This document shows positions 3,158 to 9,584 of a stretch of 11,923 nucleotides of DNA, piece by piece. The number at the start of each line of letters is the position of its first letter. The first letter of the stretch is position 1. The DNA comes from a bacterium. Lineage in GTDB: Bacteria > CSSED10-310 > JAJRTK01. The stretch spans positions 1-11,923 of the forward strand of contig JAJRTK010000244.1 of the NCBI GenBank assembly GCA_024278345.1. Direction: 5' to 3'. The notes under the pieces are model-generated. The model ran no database searches, was not told the DNA's origin, and saw only the letters and a list, made by a program, of their open reading frames with translations. The translations under genes and the position numbers were made by a program.

Positions 3158-5386
3158 ATGAACCGACTCTGGAAATCAGGACTTTTTGTGGCGATGCTCT
3201 TATGCGTGGGCTGTGGATCTTCGGTGGAAGGCGCTTCTATCGTCCGGGGTCCTTATTTGCAGCTTGGTACGCCGACGAGCATGGTGGTCCGGTGGCGCAC
3301 CGATGTTCAGACTTCTTCGAGGGTCGATTACGGTCTTAGCCGGGAGCAACTGGGGCAGACGGTGATCAAGAATGAGTGGGTGACCGAGCACGAGGTTTGG
3401 ATCACCGGTCTGAAGCCCGGGACGAAATACTATTATGCCGTGGGCGACGGCACGGAAATCCTGGCCGGTGGCGATCTGGAGCATTTTTTCGTCACCTCGC
3501 CGCCCGTAGGCCTGCCGACCCCAACGCGGATCTGGCTTTTGGGGGATTCCGGGACGGCCAATGATGACGCTCGGGCGGTTCGGAATGCCTTTCTGGCGAA
3601 TGGAGGCAGCGGTCCTCCCGACCTATGGATCATGTTGGGGGACAACGCCTATCCCAACGGGACCGACAGCGAATACCAGGCCGCGGTTTTCGACATGTAC
3701 CCATCGGCTTTGGCGCAGTCGGCGCTTTGGCCTACTTTGGGCAACCACGATGGGCACACCTCCGATTCGGCCACCGAGACGGGACCCTACTACGACAGTT
3801 TCAGTCTGCCCGGGGCAGCGCAAGCCGGGGGAATCGCCTCGGGCACCGAAGCCTATTACTCGTTCGATTATGGGGACATCCATTTTGTTTGCCTGGAGAG
3901 CTACGAAACCGATCGTTCACCATCCGGTGCGATGTTGACCTGGCTTGAGGAGGATCTTGCTCAGACCGCGCAACGCTGGATCATTGCATTTTGGCACCAT
4001 CCACCTTACAGCAAGGGTTCGCACAACTCCGACAGTGATACGCGGATGACGGAGATGCGGGAAAACGTGCTCCCGATTCTCGATAGCTACGGAGTTGATC
4101 TCGTGCTCTCAGGCCATAGCCATTCGTACGAACGCTCTTTCTTGCTGGACGGGCATTACGGGACTTCCGACACGCTCCAGCCCTCCATGATCCTCGACGG
4201 TGGGGATGGGCGCGTCGATGGAGACGGTGCTTATGAGAAGCCCTCTTCAGGGAACGCCGCTATTCGAGAGGGAGCCGTCTACGTCGTTGCGGGGAGCTCG
4301 GGAAAGACTGGCGGTGGCTCCTTGAACCACTCGGTGATGTTGACTTCCTTCAGCCTGCTCGGTTCCGGGATCTTGGAAATCGATGGAAATCGCCTGCGGC
4401 TGCTTTCCCTCGATGCATCCGGTGTCGTGAGGGATCGGTTCACGATTCTCAAGGGCGCCGATCTGGATGCGCCGCGCTTGGTTTCGGCGACGGCGGACCT
4501 TGCCGCGCCCACGGAGGTCACCGTCCGCTTTTCCGAAGAGGTTGGCGTCGCATCCGCGACGAACCCGGGAAACTATTCCCTGAATCCGGCTCTCCCCATT
4601 GCGTCCGCAACCCTGGGAGTGGATGGAAAGAGCGTTGTCTTAATGACCACGGAGCTGTCACCGGCGGAAATCTACCAGCTCACGGCACCGGGCGTTCAAG
4701 ATCTTCAGGGGAACCCCGTGGGGTCGGCTAGTGTCGTGGAGCTCCGGCTTTGGAGTCAGGCCCAGGTTGCCTTTCAAGACGGAGCCGCTCCCGATGCCAG
4801 TTATGCGGGGACCCGGGATACTACCCTTCGGGAGAATAAGCCGGACAAGAACGAAGGGGCTTTGGACACGATCTTCATGGATGGCGACGATCCTTTTTTG
4901 AGTGGTAAAGATGTTGCGGCCTTGGTCGCATGGGACTTGTCCTCGATCCCGGCCGGTGCTCGAGCCCATGGCGCCTCTATCGCGTTCAATGTCACCAACG
5001 GGAGTTCCAAGGTCTACGAAATCTACGCCATGAACCGCCCCTGGAACGAGATGGAGGCTACATGGAACCGATTTGCCACGGGGGCCGGGTGGCAAACTGG
5101 CGGTGCCACGGGTCTACTGGATCAGGGTGTGACGCTGTTGGGCACGGTGGAGGCTCCCAATACCGGGCAGATCGTCGTTCCTCTCAATCCCAGAGGCGTC
5201 CGGGTGGTCCAGGATTGGATCGATTTTCCAGCGGAGAACCAGGGCTTCGTTTTGCGGAACGGGTCCGCCCGTAACGGTCTCGATCTCAGTTCCAGTGAGG
5301 CGTCCGCCGTCGCTCTTCGTCCCAGGCTCGAGCTTCAACTGGCGCTTCCCGGAACAGCGACGGTGGCGGTGCGGTCGCCATCATGA
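3158..5386 (+). CDS. Secreted purple acid phosphatase-like metallophosphoesterase with Ig-like and DNRLRE domains
   Basis: The frame is open from 2981, but ATG 3158 is preferred: it follows AAGGA by nine bases and begins a signal peptide (MNRLWKSGLFVAMLLCVGC), giving 742 residues. Cys19 could be lipidated, although the -3 residue is Cys rather than the usual Leu. Domains in order: fibronectin-III-like PAP N-domain (about 27-115); calcineurin-like phosphoesterase (122-325); an SbsA/Big_5-type Ig-like domain (about 437-525); and a DNRLRE/CBM96-like domain (about 535-735). The full metal-ligand set is present: GDSG (Asp130), GDNAY (Asp162, Tyr165), GNHD (Asn196, His197), His280-His281 and GHSH (His320, His322). 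Tyr165 matches the Fe(III)-binding Tyr of purple acid phosphatases. The likely role is hydrolysis of phosphate esters outside the cytoplasm, with the C-terminal domains used for surface or polymer attachment. The actual substrate is unknown. No sortase or PEP-CTERM signal is seen. It overlaps the opposite-strand gene by 6 bp. Confidence 0.92.
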   Translation: MNRLWKSGLFVAMLLCVGCGSSVEGASIVRGPYLQLGTPTSMVVRWRTDVQTSSRVDYGLSREQLGQTVIKNEWVTEHEVWITGLKPGTKYYYAVGDGTEILAGGDLEHFFVTSPPVGLPTPTRIWLLGDSGTANDDARAVRNAFLANGGSGPPDLWIMLGDNAYPNGTDSEYQAAVFDMYPSALAQSALWPTLGNHDGHTSDSATETGPYYDSFSLPGAAQAGGIASGTEAYYSFDYGDIHFVCLESYETDRSPSGAMLTWLEEDLAQTAQRWIIAFWHHPPYSKGSHNSDSDTRMTEMRENVLPILDSYGVDLVLSGHSHSYERSFLLDGHYGTSDTLQPSMILDGGDGRVDGDGAYEKPSSGNAAIREGAVYVVAGSSGKTGGGSLNHSVMLTSFSLLGSGILEIDGNRLRLLSLDASGVVRDRFTILKGADLDAPRLVSATADLAAPTEVTVRFSEEVGVASATNPGNYSLNPALPIASATLGVDGKSVVLMTTELSPAEIYQLTAPGVQDLQGNPVGSASVVELRLWSQAQVAFQDGAAPDASYAGTRDTTLRENKPDKNEGALDTIFMDGDDPFLSGKDVAALVAWDLSSIPAGARAHGASIAFNVTNGSSKVYEIYAMNRPWNEMEATWNRFATGAGWQTGGATGLLDQGVTLLGTVEAPNTGQIVVPLNPRGVRVVQDWIDFPAENQGFVLRNGSARNGLDLSSSEASAVALRPRLELQLALPGTATVAVRSPS

Positions 5387-6598
5387 AAGCCCATCGAGAT
5401 CCGCAAGGAACGCCTCGGCACAGGGGGGGCAGAGGCCGTGGGTGAACTGGGCCCCGGTTCGGTCGCTCACGTAGTGTTCGACGCTGACCCAATCGTCATC
5501 TTCGTTACGGATGCTCTTACACTCCGCGCAGATTGGCAAAAATCCTGCCAGCACCTTCGTCAGGGCTTTGTCGAGCCGTTCCTGCAAACAGGCTTGTTCC
5601 TTCAGCATATTCTTCCGCTCCGAAAGAGTCGCCGCCAGCAGTAAGGCTGACACGGAGATGGTGGCAAGGAATCCGTGAAGGGAGAGAAGGCTCCACTGGA
5701 GCGTCTCCATGGCAAAGGCTCCGCGGCCCATGAATGTGCCCCAGATGGAGATACTGGCCACGATGAAAACCGTGGTCACTGCTCCTCGCGGCCCGAACCG
5801 GAGAGTTGCCCAAATGATGAAGGGGAAGACCGTATAGCTCGAAGCTCTCACGGACGGAAAATCCAGGAGCCCGCCGTACACCATGGAACTCGTGATGAGA
5901 AGGAGCAGTGTCAGCAAGGCCGCCTCAAAGAAGCGGTAGCTCACAATCTCCCAGAGAGGCCGGACGCTCCAGGTGAGGAGTAGGGGAGTCACGATGAGCA
6001 TTCCCATTCCGTCCCCCAGCCACCAGCCCCACCAGGCCATGGGGAAGTTTGGGACGGACAGAACTTCCGCCACCCAGAGCCCCATGACCCCGAAGGTGGC
6101 GCTGATACCCGCGCTCACCGGTACCGCCAGAACCACGAATCCCAGAACGTCCTGGAGGCGGCCCATCTCCGACCGGAAGTCCACTGCCTTCTTGAGCAGG
6201 TAAGCGCCTGTCAGCGACTCCAGCGGATTCCCCACTGCCGTGGCCAAGCAAAAGGTCAAGGAGCTTCCTTCCATGAAATTGGTGAGAAACGCGCCAACGG
6301 CCAGAGCCGGCCAGACTCGAGGACCGTAAAGGACGACCGCCGCAAGACCGATGCCTGCGGTCGGCCAGACCAGGGTGACCGATTCTTGGTAGAAGGCCAG
6401 GGCCAACCCGATTTGCCCCGCTGCAACATAGAACGCGGCCAACACAACCTGAAGCAGCAGCTCTTCCGGCCAGTTCTTCGGAAAGGTGTTCTGCTCGAGA
6501 TCGGGAGGCGGTGTTGTCTCTGAGTCCAAAATTTCCGGCCCGGTGGTTTTATCGGGAGAATCAGCCAATGGATTGGCTCCTTTCCTCGCAGTGATCAT
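5381..6598 (-). CDS. MASE1-domain membrane sensor with C-terminal four-cysteine module
   Basis: The 405-residue product has a polar Pro-rich N-terminus of about 45 residues and then a multi-helix membrane region (about 48-330). That region carries MASE1 hallmarks: WPTAGIGLAAVVLYG, the WPALAVGAFLTNF segment, GNPLESLTGAYLL, and a WWLGDGMGMLIVTPLLL stretch. A short helical linker rich in Glu, Lys and Leu follows. The last ~50 residues read LPICAECKSIR ... FTHGLCPPC, with Cys357, Cys360, His387, Cys390 and Cys393. I recognise this C-x2-C ... H-G-x-C-x2-C module from the C-termini of many response-regulator, PAS and GAF proteins, but I know of no established function; a small metal knuckle is an inference. 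MASE1 normally senses a signal for a histidine kinase or GGDEF output, yet no such domain is present here. The ATG at 6598 has only a weak ribosome site; a TTG at codon 11 has a better one. Confidence 0.87.
   Translation of the reverse strand: MITARKGANPLADSPDKTTGPEILDSETTPPPDLEQNTFPKNWPEELLLQVVLAAFYVAAGQIGLALAFYQESVTLVWPTAGIGLAAVVLYGPRVWPALAVGAFLTNFMEGSSLTFCLATAVGNPLESLTGAYLLKKAVDFRSEMGRLQDVLGFVVLAVPVSAGISATFGVMGLWVAEVLSVPNFPMAWWGWWLGDGMGMLIVTPLLLTWSVRPLWEIVSYRFFEAALLTLLLLITSSMVYGGLLDFPSVRASSYTVFPFIIWATLRFGPRGAVTTVFIVASISIWGTFMGRGAFAMETLQWSLLSLHGFLATISVSALLLAATLSERKNMLKEQACLQERLDKALTKVLAGFLPICAECKSIRNEDDDWVSVEHYVSDRTGAQFTHGLCPPCAEAFLADLDGLS
6577..6586 (-). promoter_or_regulatory. Internal Shine-Dalgarno suggesting a TTG start at 6568 for the MASE1 gene
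   Basis: Read on the minus strand this is AGGAAAGGAG, with eight bases between GGAG and an in-frame TTG (6568-6566, codon 11). The upstream ATG at 6598 has only AGGG seven bases ahead. Translation may therefore begin at 6568, which would shorten the polar N-terminus by ten residues and leave every membrane helix intact. Confidence 0.45.
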
Positions 6599-7712: not shown

Positions 7713-9584
7713 GTGAAGACGATTGCATTGGAAGGTGGCTTGAAGGACCAATTGGTGGCTGCTCTGACGCGTTCGGAGTTGTTTCATGGAATGGAGCCCG
7801 CGCGGGTCACGGAGGTCGTGGGACAGCATGGTTCGTTGGTGCAGTGCGAAGAGGGGGATCTTTTGATCGAAGCGGGCACGCCTGCGGATTCGTTCTATCT
7901 CCTGCTTCAGGGGGAGGCGTCGGTTCACGTGACGTCCGGCGGGGAAATGATGGAGGTGGGCCGGTTGAAACCGCCCCAGACTCTGGGCGAGGTGGGGCTG
8001 CTGTTGCGCCAGTCACGGACGGCGACGGTCATTGCTGAAGGGCAGGTCGTGGCGCTGAAGATCGATCAGAATGCTTTCCACAACCTGTTTCGCATGTTGC
8101 CTTCTTTCGGGACGGCGGTTTCCAAGGGGCTTGCGCTCCGGCTGCGGGATGCCTCGAACCAGATACCGCTTCCGAGGCATGAGGACGGGGAAGGTATTCC
8201 GCCGGCGGAGGTTCTTGAGCTGTTGCCTTTGAGTTTTTTGCAGCGGCACCGAATCCTACCTCTTGAGCGGAAAGGGCGGGTGCTGGTCTTGGGATTCGTG
8301 GATGATCCCAGTTCTCCCGCCATCCGTGCGGCTCGACAACGATTGCCCGGGATCGAGTTCCGGCCAAGGCGGATCAGCCTTGAGCTTTTCAACCGCGTGA
8401 TGCAGCGCCAGTCAGGCCTTGGAGAGGCTAAGGATTCTCCTGGCCGTGTGGCCGTGGACGAAGTCAAGCGGAGCTCTCCCAAGCTCGATGCTCTCCTGGC
8501 CCGCGTCGTGGAGGAGGGGGCCTCTGACCTCCATTTGTCCGGTGGGCAAAAGCCCAGGTGGCGCATCGATGGCGATATGCAGGAGCTTTCCGACCTGCCT
8601 CCCTTTCGGGGCGATGAGATCTTTGAGATGGTCCGCCCCATCATGGGTCCTCGGCACAGCGAAGAGTTTGATGCTACCAGCGACACCGACCTCGCCTACG
8701 AGATCCCGGGTCTGGCAAGGTTCCGTGTCAATATCTTCCGCGACCGTGGCGGTGTGGGCGCTGTTTTGCGAAACCTTCCCAGCAAGATTATGAGCTTCGA
8801 GGAGCTGGGGCTTCCTCCCATCATCAAAACCTTGTGCGACATTCCCAAGGGACTGATTCTTGTGACGGGTCCCACCGGCTCAGGGAAATCGACGACCCTG
8901 GCTTCCATGATGGACTATCTCAACAGGGTCCGTAGTGACCACATTATCACGCTGGAAGACCCGGTGGAGTTTGTTTACAAGAGCGAGAAATGCCTTGTGA
9001 ACCAAAGAGAAGTCTTCTCTCATACCAGCAGCTTTTCCAGGGCGCTTCGCGCCGCACTGCGCGAAGATCCGGACATCATCCTGGTGGGGGAGATGCGGGA
9101 TGCCGAAACCATGGGGCTTGCCATAGAGACGGCCAATACTGGCCACTTGGTTTTCGGAACCCTTAATACTTCCAATGCCGTGATGACCGTGGACCGGGTT
9201 TTGGGCATGTTCCCTCCGGCCCAGCAGCCGCAAATCCGAGCAACGTTGGCCGACAACCTCAAGGGCGTCATTTCTCAGATGCTCTGTAAGAAGATCAAGG
9301 GTGGCCGGGTGGCGGCCATGGAGGTGATGGTTTCCACGGTGGGCATCTCGAACATCATCCGCGAGGCGAAGACCCATCAACTCGAAAATTCCATGGTAAC
9401 CGGGCAAAAGCTGGGGAATATCCTCCTAAACGACAGCCTCTTGAAACTTATTGAAAAGCGGATCATCAGCAGGAGCGAAGCGCTGGACAAAACTCTCAAC
9501 AAAGAGGATCTGCAAAAGAAATTCCTCAAGCTCATGCCACCTGGTGGAGCCCAGCCAGGCAACCGTAGGCGACCGTCACGGTAG
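7713..9584 (+). CDS. Cyclic-nucleotide-binding domain / GspE-N-like / PilT-type pilus retraction ATPase fusion
   Basis: The 623-residue product is far longer than a normal PilT (about 340-370). Residues ~10-140 form a CRP/PKA-type cyclic-nucleotide-binding domain. Its phosphate-binding cassette, LGEVGLLLRQSRTATV, keeps Glu93 and Arg102, the residues that hold ribose and phosphate in cNMP binders. Residues ~165-235 (LELLPLSFLQRHRILPLERK and onward) resemble the C-terminal half of the GspE/PilB N-domain. From ~255 on it is PilT: Walker A GPTGSGKST (386-394), Asp box around Glu415, Walker B with Glu460, and His box with His478. A NIIRE segment corresponds to PilT's AIRNLIRE motif, and the tetra-Cys zinc motif of GspE/PilB is absent. 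The second His-box His is Asn485 (TLNTSN instead of TLHTNS). It most likely drives or regulates type IV pilus retraction at the inner-membrane pilus base under cAMP or cGMP control. No other pilus gene is adjacent. Stop at 9584. Confidence 0.93.
   Translation: MKTIALEGGLKDQLVAALTRSELFHGMEPARVTEVVGQHGSLVQCEEGDLLIEAGTPADSFYLLLQGEASVHVTSGGEMMEVGRLKPPQTLGEVGLLLRQSRTATVIAEGQVVALKIDQNAFHNLFRMLPSFGTAVSKGLALRLRDASNQIPLPRHEDGEGIPPAEVLELLPLSFLQRHRILPLERKGRVLVLGFVDDPSSPAIRAARQRLPGIEFRPRRISLELFNRVMQRQSGLGEAKDSPGRVAVDEVKRSSPKLDALLARVVEEGASDLHLSGGQKPRWRIDGDMQELSDLPPFRGDEIFEMVRPIMGPRHSEEFDATSDTDLAYEIPGLARFRVNIFRDRGGVGAVLRNLPSKIMSFEELGLPPIIKTLCDIPKGLILVTGPTGSGKSTTLASMMDYLNRVRSDHIITLEDPVEFVYKSEKCLVNQREVFSHTSSFSRALRAALREDPDIILVGEMRDAETMGLAIETANTGHLVFGTLNTSNAVMTVDRVLGMFPPAQQPQIRATLADNLKGVISQMLCKKIKGGRVAAMEVMVSTVGISNIIREAKTHQLENSMVTGQKLGNILLNDSLLKLIEKRIISRSEALDKTLNKEDLQKKFLKLMPPGGAQPGNRRRPSR

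Follow-up and report, generated by a model that had tools for sequence, protein, structure and literature searches.

A PilT-family motor ATPase fused to a predicted cyclic-nucleotide-binding domain, with possible gating by cAMP

The window (the whole 11,923-nucleotide stretch that we analyzed) is an entire contig of a 6.06 Mb host genome that is assembled in 550 contigs and is 88% complete. The gene under study is a single open frame (Table 1), and its GTG start agrees with its homologs, which open with MKTI or MQVL in the same alignment column. Its neighbors in the window encode a glycyl-radical enzyme with its activase, a purple-acid-phosphatase-like protein, a MASE1 protein, a methyltransferase, an alpha/beta hydrolase, and a beta-lactamase-fold esterase; none of them is pilus related, and an Rfam scan of the window gave no matches. 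The glycyl-radical enzyme is of the PFL2/HYPD type and lies with its radical-SAM activase at positions 1-2962, and it scores below every equivalog cutoff. The MASE1 protein (5381-6598, reverse strand) is a membrane sensor with no recognized output domain and a short Cys-containing tail (FLPICAECKSIRNEDDDWVSVEHYV...THGLCPPCAEAFL).

Table 1. Positions of the fusion gene and its parts in the window, and of the GAF-PilB genes that adjoin two of its relatives
Feature	Position	Strand	Basis or remark
CNB-MshEN(half)-PilT fusion protein, 623 aa	7713..9584	+	GTG start 7713, stop 9584; open frame, Pfam/NCBIfam, orthologs
Cyclic-nucleotide-binding (CNB) domain (PF00027), residues 43-127	7839..8093	+	Pfam, PDB fold match
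Phosphate-binding cassette (PBC), residues 91-106	7983..8030	+	GE..R[TS] in 22/23 copies
PBC residues Glu93, Arg102, Thr103	Glu93 7989-7991; Arg102 8016-8018	+	
CNB C-helix, residues 130-148	8100..8156	+	predicted helix; E. coli CRP alignment
MshEN/GspE-N alpha/beta lobe, residues 163-233	8199..8411	+	without c-di-GMP-binding RLG...Q motifs
PilT-family motor (TIGR01420), residues 258-598	8484..9506	+	NCBIfam
Walker A GPTGSGKST, residues 386-394	8868..8894	+	
ASP box IITLEDPVEF, residues 411-420	8943..8972	+	
Walker B and catalytic Glu, DIILVGEMRD, residues 454-463	9072..9101	+	
HIS box NTGHLVFGTLNTSNA, residues 475-489	9135..9179	+	His478 present; Asn485 (AAT, 9165-9167)
GISNIIREA, AIRNLIRE-like motif of retraction ATPases, residues 544-552	9342..9368	+	
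GAF-MshEN-PilB	L083:7480-9897	-	
GAF-MshEN-PilB	L078:6204-8780	+	

Three regions of the protein were recognized by Pfam: a cNMP_binding domain (64.5 bits; cutoff 27.5), an MshEN domain at residues 163-214 (31 bits; cutoff 23.1), and a T2SSE domain at residues 257-529 (154 bits). Matches of this strength lie well beyond what chance would give. In NCBIfam the motor matched TIGR01420, PilT/PilU, with 441.9 bits (cutoff 319), and by this curated score the protein is a member of the PilT/PilU family. A sequence-only reading had described a CNB domain with both key residues, a GspE-N-like segment, and a complete PilT motor. Its description of the CNB domain stands, as Glu93 and Arg102 are canonically spaced in LGEVGLLLRQSRTATV and the PF00027 match exceeds its cutoff. 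The other two descriptions hold in part: the middle segment does match MshEN and comprises the alpha/beta lobe only, without the helical motif that binds c-di-GMP, and the motor has the TIGR01420 match and intact Walker and ASP motifs and carries Asn485 where the second histidine of the HIS box is expected.

The order of CNB domain, MshEN lobe, and PilT motor is repeated in at least 24 proteins, and it recurs in three phyla (Schekmanbacteria, Riflebacteria, and Myxococcota), so the architecture defines a family and is not a one-off. One relative that matches along its whole sequence, from the same phylum as the host, shares 47-49% identity and an identical domain order. About 85,000 species genomes were scanned with two peptide patterns only, and this added members from Riflebacteria and Myxococcales UBA5297. 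When Riflebacteria were searched as a phylum, 13 of 39 genomes were positive, all within one family of 24 genomes; the fusion was present in about 8 of 195 genomes of Myxococcota (the phylum of the Myxococcales member) and in 3 of 386 genomes of a mixed sample of bacteria. We then have, from a tree of 80 motor domains (N-domain left out; quick search, no bootstrap), a single clade that contains 24 of 24 CNB-PilTs (SH-aLRT 100), which indicates one fusion event followed by spread through descent or transfer. The window DNA had no match in a plasmid search, and in a tblastn search of plasmids with the protein the fusion was absent, with matches to the PilT half alone among the 5000 best records counted.

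By sequence, the isolated CNB domain is near CNB-B of PKA RI (E about 4e-20). A predicted model of the N-domain (pLDDT 81.6) had MtbCRP-cAMP as its best fold match in the PDB (Z 18.7, 2.3 A over 143 residues), and further top matches were other cAMP or cGMP complexes; FNR-type structures also matched, at similar Z. Alignment with E. coli CRP paired Glu93, Arg102, Thr103, and Ser148 with CRP Glu72, Arg82, Ser83, and Ser128 (mature numbering), of which Ser128 contacts the adenine. The GE...R[T/S]A cassette is intact in 22 of the 23 CNB-PilT copies read, and the Ser128 equivalent is Ser or Thr in 20 of 21 copies from the three phyla, across which the N-domains are 27-37% identical (about 30% overall). 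The sole cassette failure is copy L155, from which the Arg, the Ser128 equivalent, and the MshEN lobe are all gone. Among close Riflebacteria orthologs, dN/dS was 0.03-0.13 for the CNB domain, a sign of strong purifying selection; it was 0.06-0.14, where defined, for the MshEN lobe and 0.015-0.05, the lowest of the three regions, for the motor. Some CNB domains have lost cNMP binding or act constitutively. For this one, the conserved PBC and Ser128 equivalent, the purifying selection, the predicted fold that resembles cAMP-bound CRP, and the pil and cyclase genes described below all support ligand binding, and we regard it as highly probable that the domain binds a cyclic mononucleotide. The earlier expectation of binding, which had been drawn from the intact cassette, is thus strengthened by conservation, selection, and the modeled fold.

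MshEN domains that bind c-di-GMP contain two 24-residue RLGxx...Q motifs (PMC5013675). A relaxed version of this motif was absent from all 21 CNB-PilTs scanned, and the same relaxed version recovered several PilBs, two of them in the host genome. We ruled out c-di-GMP as a ligand acting through MshEN on the basis of the missing motif. The absence of the motif suggests that a mononucleotide sensor has replaced the c-di-GMP sensor: the CNB domain appears to take the place of the c-di-GMP helices, and the alpha/beta lobe appears to have been retained as a linker or transducer.

The sequence-only reading would have been refuted by a genome without type IV pilus genes or a nucleotide cyclase; the host genome contains both. 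A canonical PilB-PilT-PilC operon is present on one host contig (C400), PilM is present on another (C358), where the next frames read as PilN and PilO, and there are 12 matches to class III cyclases. The seven carrier genomes tested had 12, 18, 20, 34, 62, 63, and 64 such matches. In the 58 remaining genomes of a 60-genome sample the median was 1, and among the 12 of them that measure at least 4.3 Mb it was 4 (Mann-Whitney p = 0.0006). As Riflebacteria account for four of the seven carriers, this enrichment is correlative, covers few independent lineages, and is phylogenetically uneven. The 62-64 class III cyclase matches in each of the Riflebacteria genomes G125, G388, and G389 are a very high number for genomes of 4-6 Mb. 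The strongest host cyclase carries IKTIGDAYM and YDVWGD, which we take to be the Lys/Asp adenine-selecting pair of adenylate-type class III cyclases, and because of this pair we favor cAMP, which is probably the ligand. Thr103 was considered as a sign of cGMP selectivity and dropped, because Ser or Thr is common at this position in bacterial CNB domains, including cAMP-binding CRP (Ser83).

We propose that the 623-aa protein is a PilT-family motor ATPase of type IV pili that is allosterically gated by a cyclic mononucleotide, probably cAMP, and we hold this reading with moderate confidence. The ligand, most likely cAMP, would bind the N-terminal CNB domain and shift its C-helix, as happens in CRP and PKA. 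This helix is predicted to lead directly into the N1-type alpha/beta lobe and from there into the PilT core, and its shift could alter hexamer assembly, ATP turnover, or docking to PilC, with the outcome that retraction would be licensed or blocked. The conserved anatomy leads us to favor a positive direction, in which cAMP relieves auto-inhibition and so licenses retraction, although we hold this tentatively and at somewhat less than even confidence. A model of the full-length protein (pLDDT 70.8, pTM 0.45) was too poor for domain contacts to be read from it.

The motor of the window copy retains the Walker A Lys, the ASP box, the catalytic Glu of Walker B, and the AIRNLIRE-type motif. Its HIS box, however, reads GTLNTS in place of GTLHTS; His478 is kept, and the second His is replaced by Asn485 in this copy only, with the His present in all 20 other tabulated CNB-PilTs. 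Published work lists the histidines of the HIS box as essential to the activity of PilT (PMC5065972), and His420 of G. metallireducens PilB, which is equivalent to the Asn485 site, touches the gamma-phosphate (PMC5424180). As Asn485 takes the place of this His, "complete motor" is too strong a description, and we lowered the claim that the motor is fully active. The window motor may hydrolyze ATP poorly or may work in a mixed hexamer, and Asn485 could conceivably be a single-base assembly error.

The replacement at Asn485 also lends weight to an unlikely alternative, in which the CNB domain binds a cyclic nucleotide and steers localization or the choice of partner, not the catalysis of its own motor. 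The protein might, for example, dimerize, or act as a PilU-like regulatory subunit that docks into mixed hexamers, and the window copy would then be a regulatory subunit with weak activity. A Riflebacteria CNB-PilT (L122:1474-3315) fits this alternative, since it has a dead-looking motor (GSGRS, VGALRD, GRLVLASMHT) that lacks the Walker A Lys, the Walker B Glu, and the first HIS-box His, yet it keeps an intact nucleotide-binding cassette. The alternative also gains from the many other PilT paralogs of the host, one of them canonical and beside PilB, and from PilU, which is described as acting in a PilT-dependent manner (PMC6762196). Most of the family speaks against this alternative: the second HIS-box His is kept in 20 of 21 CNB-PilTs, the Walker A Lys and Walker B Glu are likewise kept in 20 of 21 (motif table), and dN/dS is lowest in the motor. 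A second divergent CNB-PilT copy, L132, comes from a genome that also has an intact copy.

We consider it improbable that the motor drives some other T2SS- or T4P-like or competence process and not pilus retraction. The CNB-PilT gene mostly stands alone, in that neither an operon nor pil neighbors are conserved across carriers, and genomes carry many T2SSE paralogs (22 matches in the host), which would fit such a role. Against it stand the PilT family score above the cutoff, the retained AIRNLIRE-type motif, two prepilin genes upstream of the CNB-PilT copy in L079 (one lineage), and a GAF-MshEN-PilB gene that adjoins CNB-PilT in L083 and L078, which belong to two phyla. The two GAF-PilBs are 46% identical over 790 aa, and their genes are divergent from CNB-PilT in L083 and codirectional with it in L078. 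Full-length GAF-PilB was found in two of nine genomes searched (L083 and L078 only), and it was not found in the host genome (88% complete). The GAF domain of both looks to be of the phosphodiesterase type (FRTxxxLxxPV...GVLQLIN...F...D). Apart from the fusion family, we observed PilT motors (836-857 aa) that carry a long extension at the N-terminus, each adjoining a second PilT gene, in L042:2-2509 (host G000:C245) and, from the same phylum as the host, in L027:1498-4068 and L028:1468-4041; HEAT repeats were seen in L042 and L027, and the architecture is apparently unusual.

Least probable of all is that the CNB domain is a fold-only relic or a protein-protein module that does not bind nucleotide; such domains exist (as the FNR-type matches illustrate), and L155 is a case of cassette loss within the clade. 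Against this reading, GE, R, T/S, and Ser148 are nearly invariant in sequences from three phyla that are about 30% identical, and the domain is under strong purifying selection.

Like PilT/PilU (TIGR01420), the fusion has a motor with Walker, ASP, and AIRNLIRE-type motifs, about 50% identical to PilTs from unrelated bacteria, and it differs by an extra N-terminus of 250 aa (CNB domain and MshEN lobe) and, in the window copy, by Asn485. Like the c-di-GMP-binding MshEN proteins MshE, PilB, and GspE (PMC5013675), it runs from an N-terminal second-messenger sensor through an alpha/beta lobe to a motor, but its sensor is a CNB domain, no member has RLGxx...Q, and its motor is of the PilT type. The fold, the PBC, and the CRP-like C-helix with its Ser128 equivalent resemble the CNB domains of CRP/Vfr and of the PKA regulatory subunit; unlike these, the fusion has no DNA-binding or kinase-inhibitory part (no Pfam match in the 623 aa to a C-terminal helix-turn-helix of the CRP/Vfr type), and its output would be a motor ATPase. 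Sequence matches also relate it to the mycobacterial cAMP-gated acetyltransferase Pat/KATmt, where a CNB domain is likewise fused to an enzyme as a cis-acting regulator but the output is an acetyltransferase. An identical N-terminal order is seen in CNB-MshEN-PilB fusions that we observed in Myxococcota (L149-L154 and L156-L159), which share the PBC GEMALxTxxxRSA, have the full GE...RSA cassette in 9 of 10 cases, and differ in carrying a PilB-type assembly motor. Their occurrence besides CNB-PilT indicates that putative built-in cNMP sensors are found on both kinds of motor. L070 (genome G134) also combines CNB and MshEN with a PilB-type motor, and its phosphate-binding cassette is not recognizable. 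Each part of the window protein is known, and CNB-enzyme fusion is known from mycobacterial Pat; the CNB-PilT fusion is apparently undescribed, as we found no publication describing CNB on PilT in the open-access literature, and the architecture may be recorded in domain databases.

Control of type IV pili by cAMP has been described as transcriptional, through Pil-Chp, CyaB, and Vfr (PMC11656802), and assembly motors have been described as gated directly by a nucleotide, c-di-GMP (PMC5013675). If confirmed, a retraction motor gated by cAMP would unite the two on a much faster time scale, and it would give a clean experimental handle (ligand in, pilus watched) on what switches retraction on. 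Members of the family come from three phyla, in genomes rich in adenylate or guanylate cyclases. It is possible, though we think it rather doubtful, that second-messenger sensors on the two opposing motors (CNB on PilT, CNB or GAF on PilB) represent a general push-pull control of pili; if so, cyclic mononucleotides would set extension versus retraction within seconds, bypassing transcription through Vfr/CRP.
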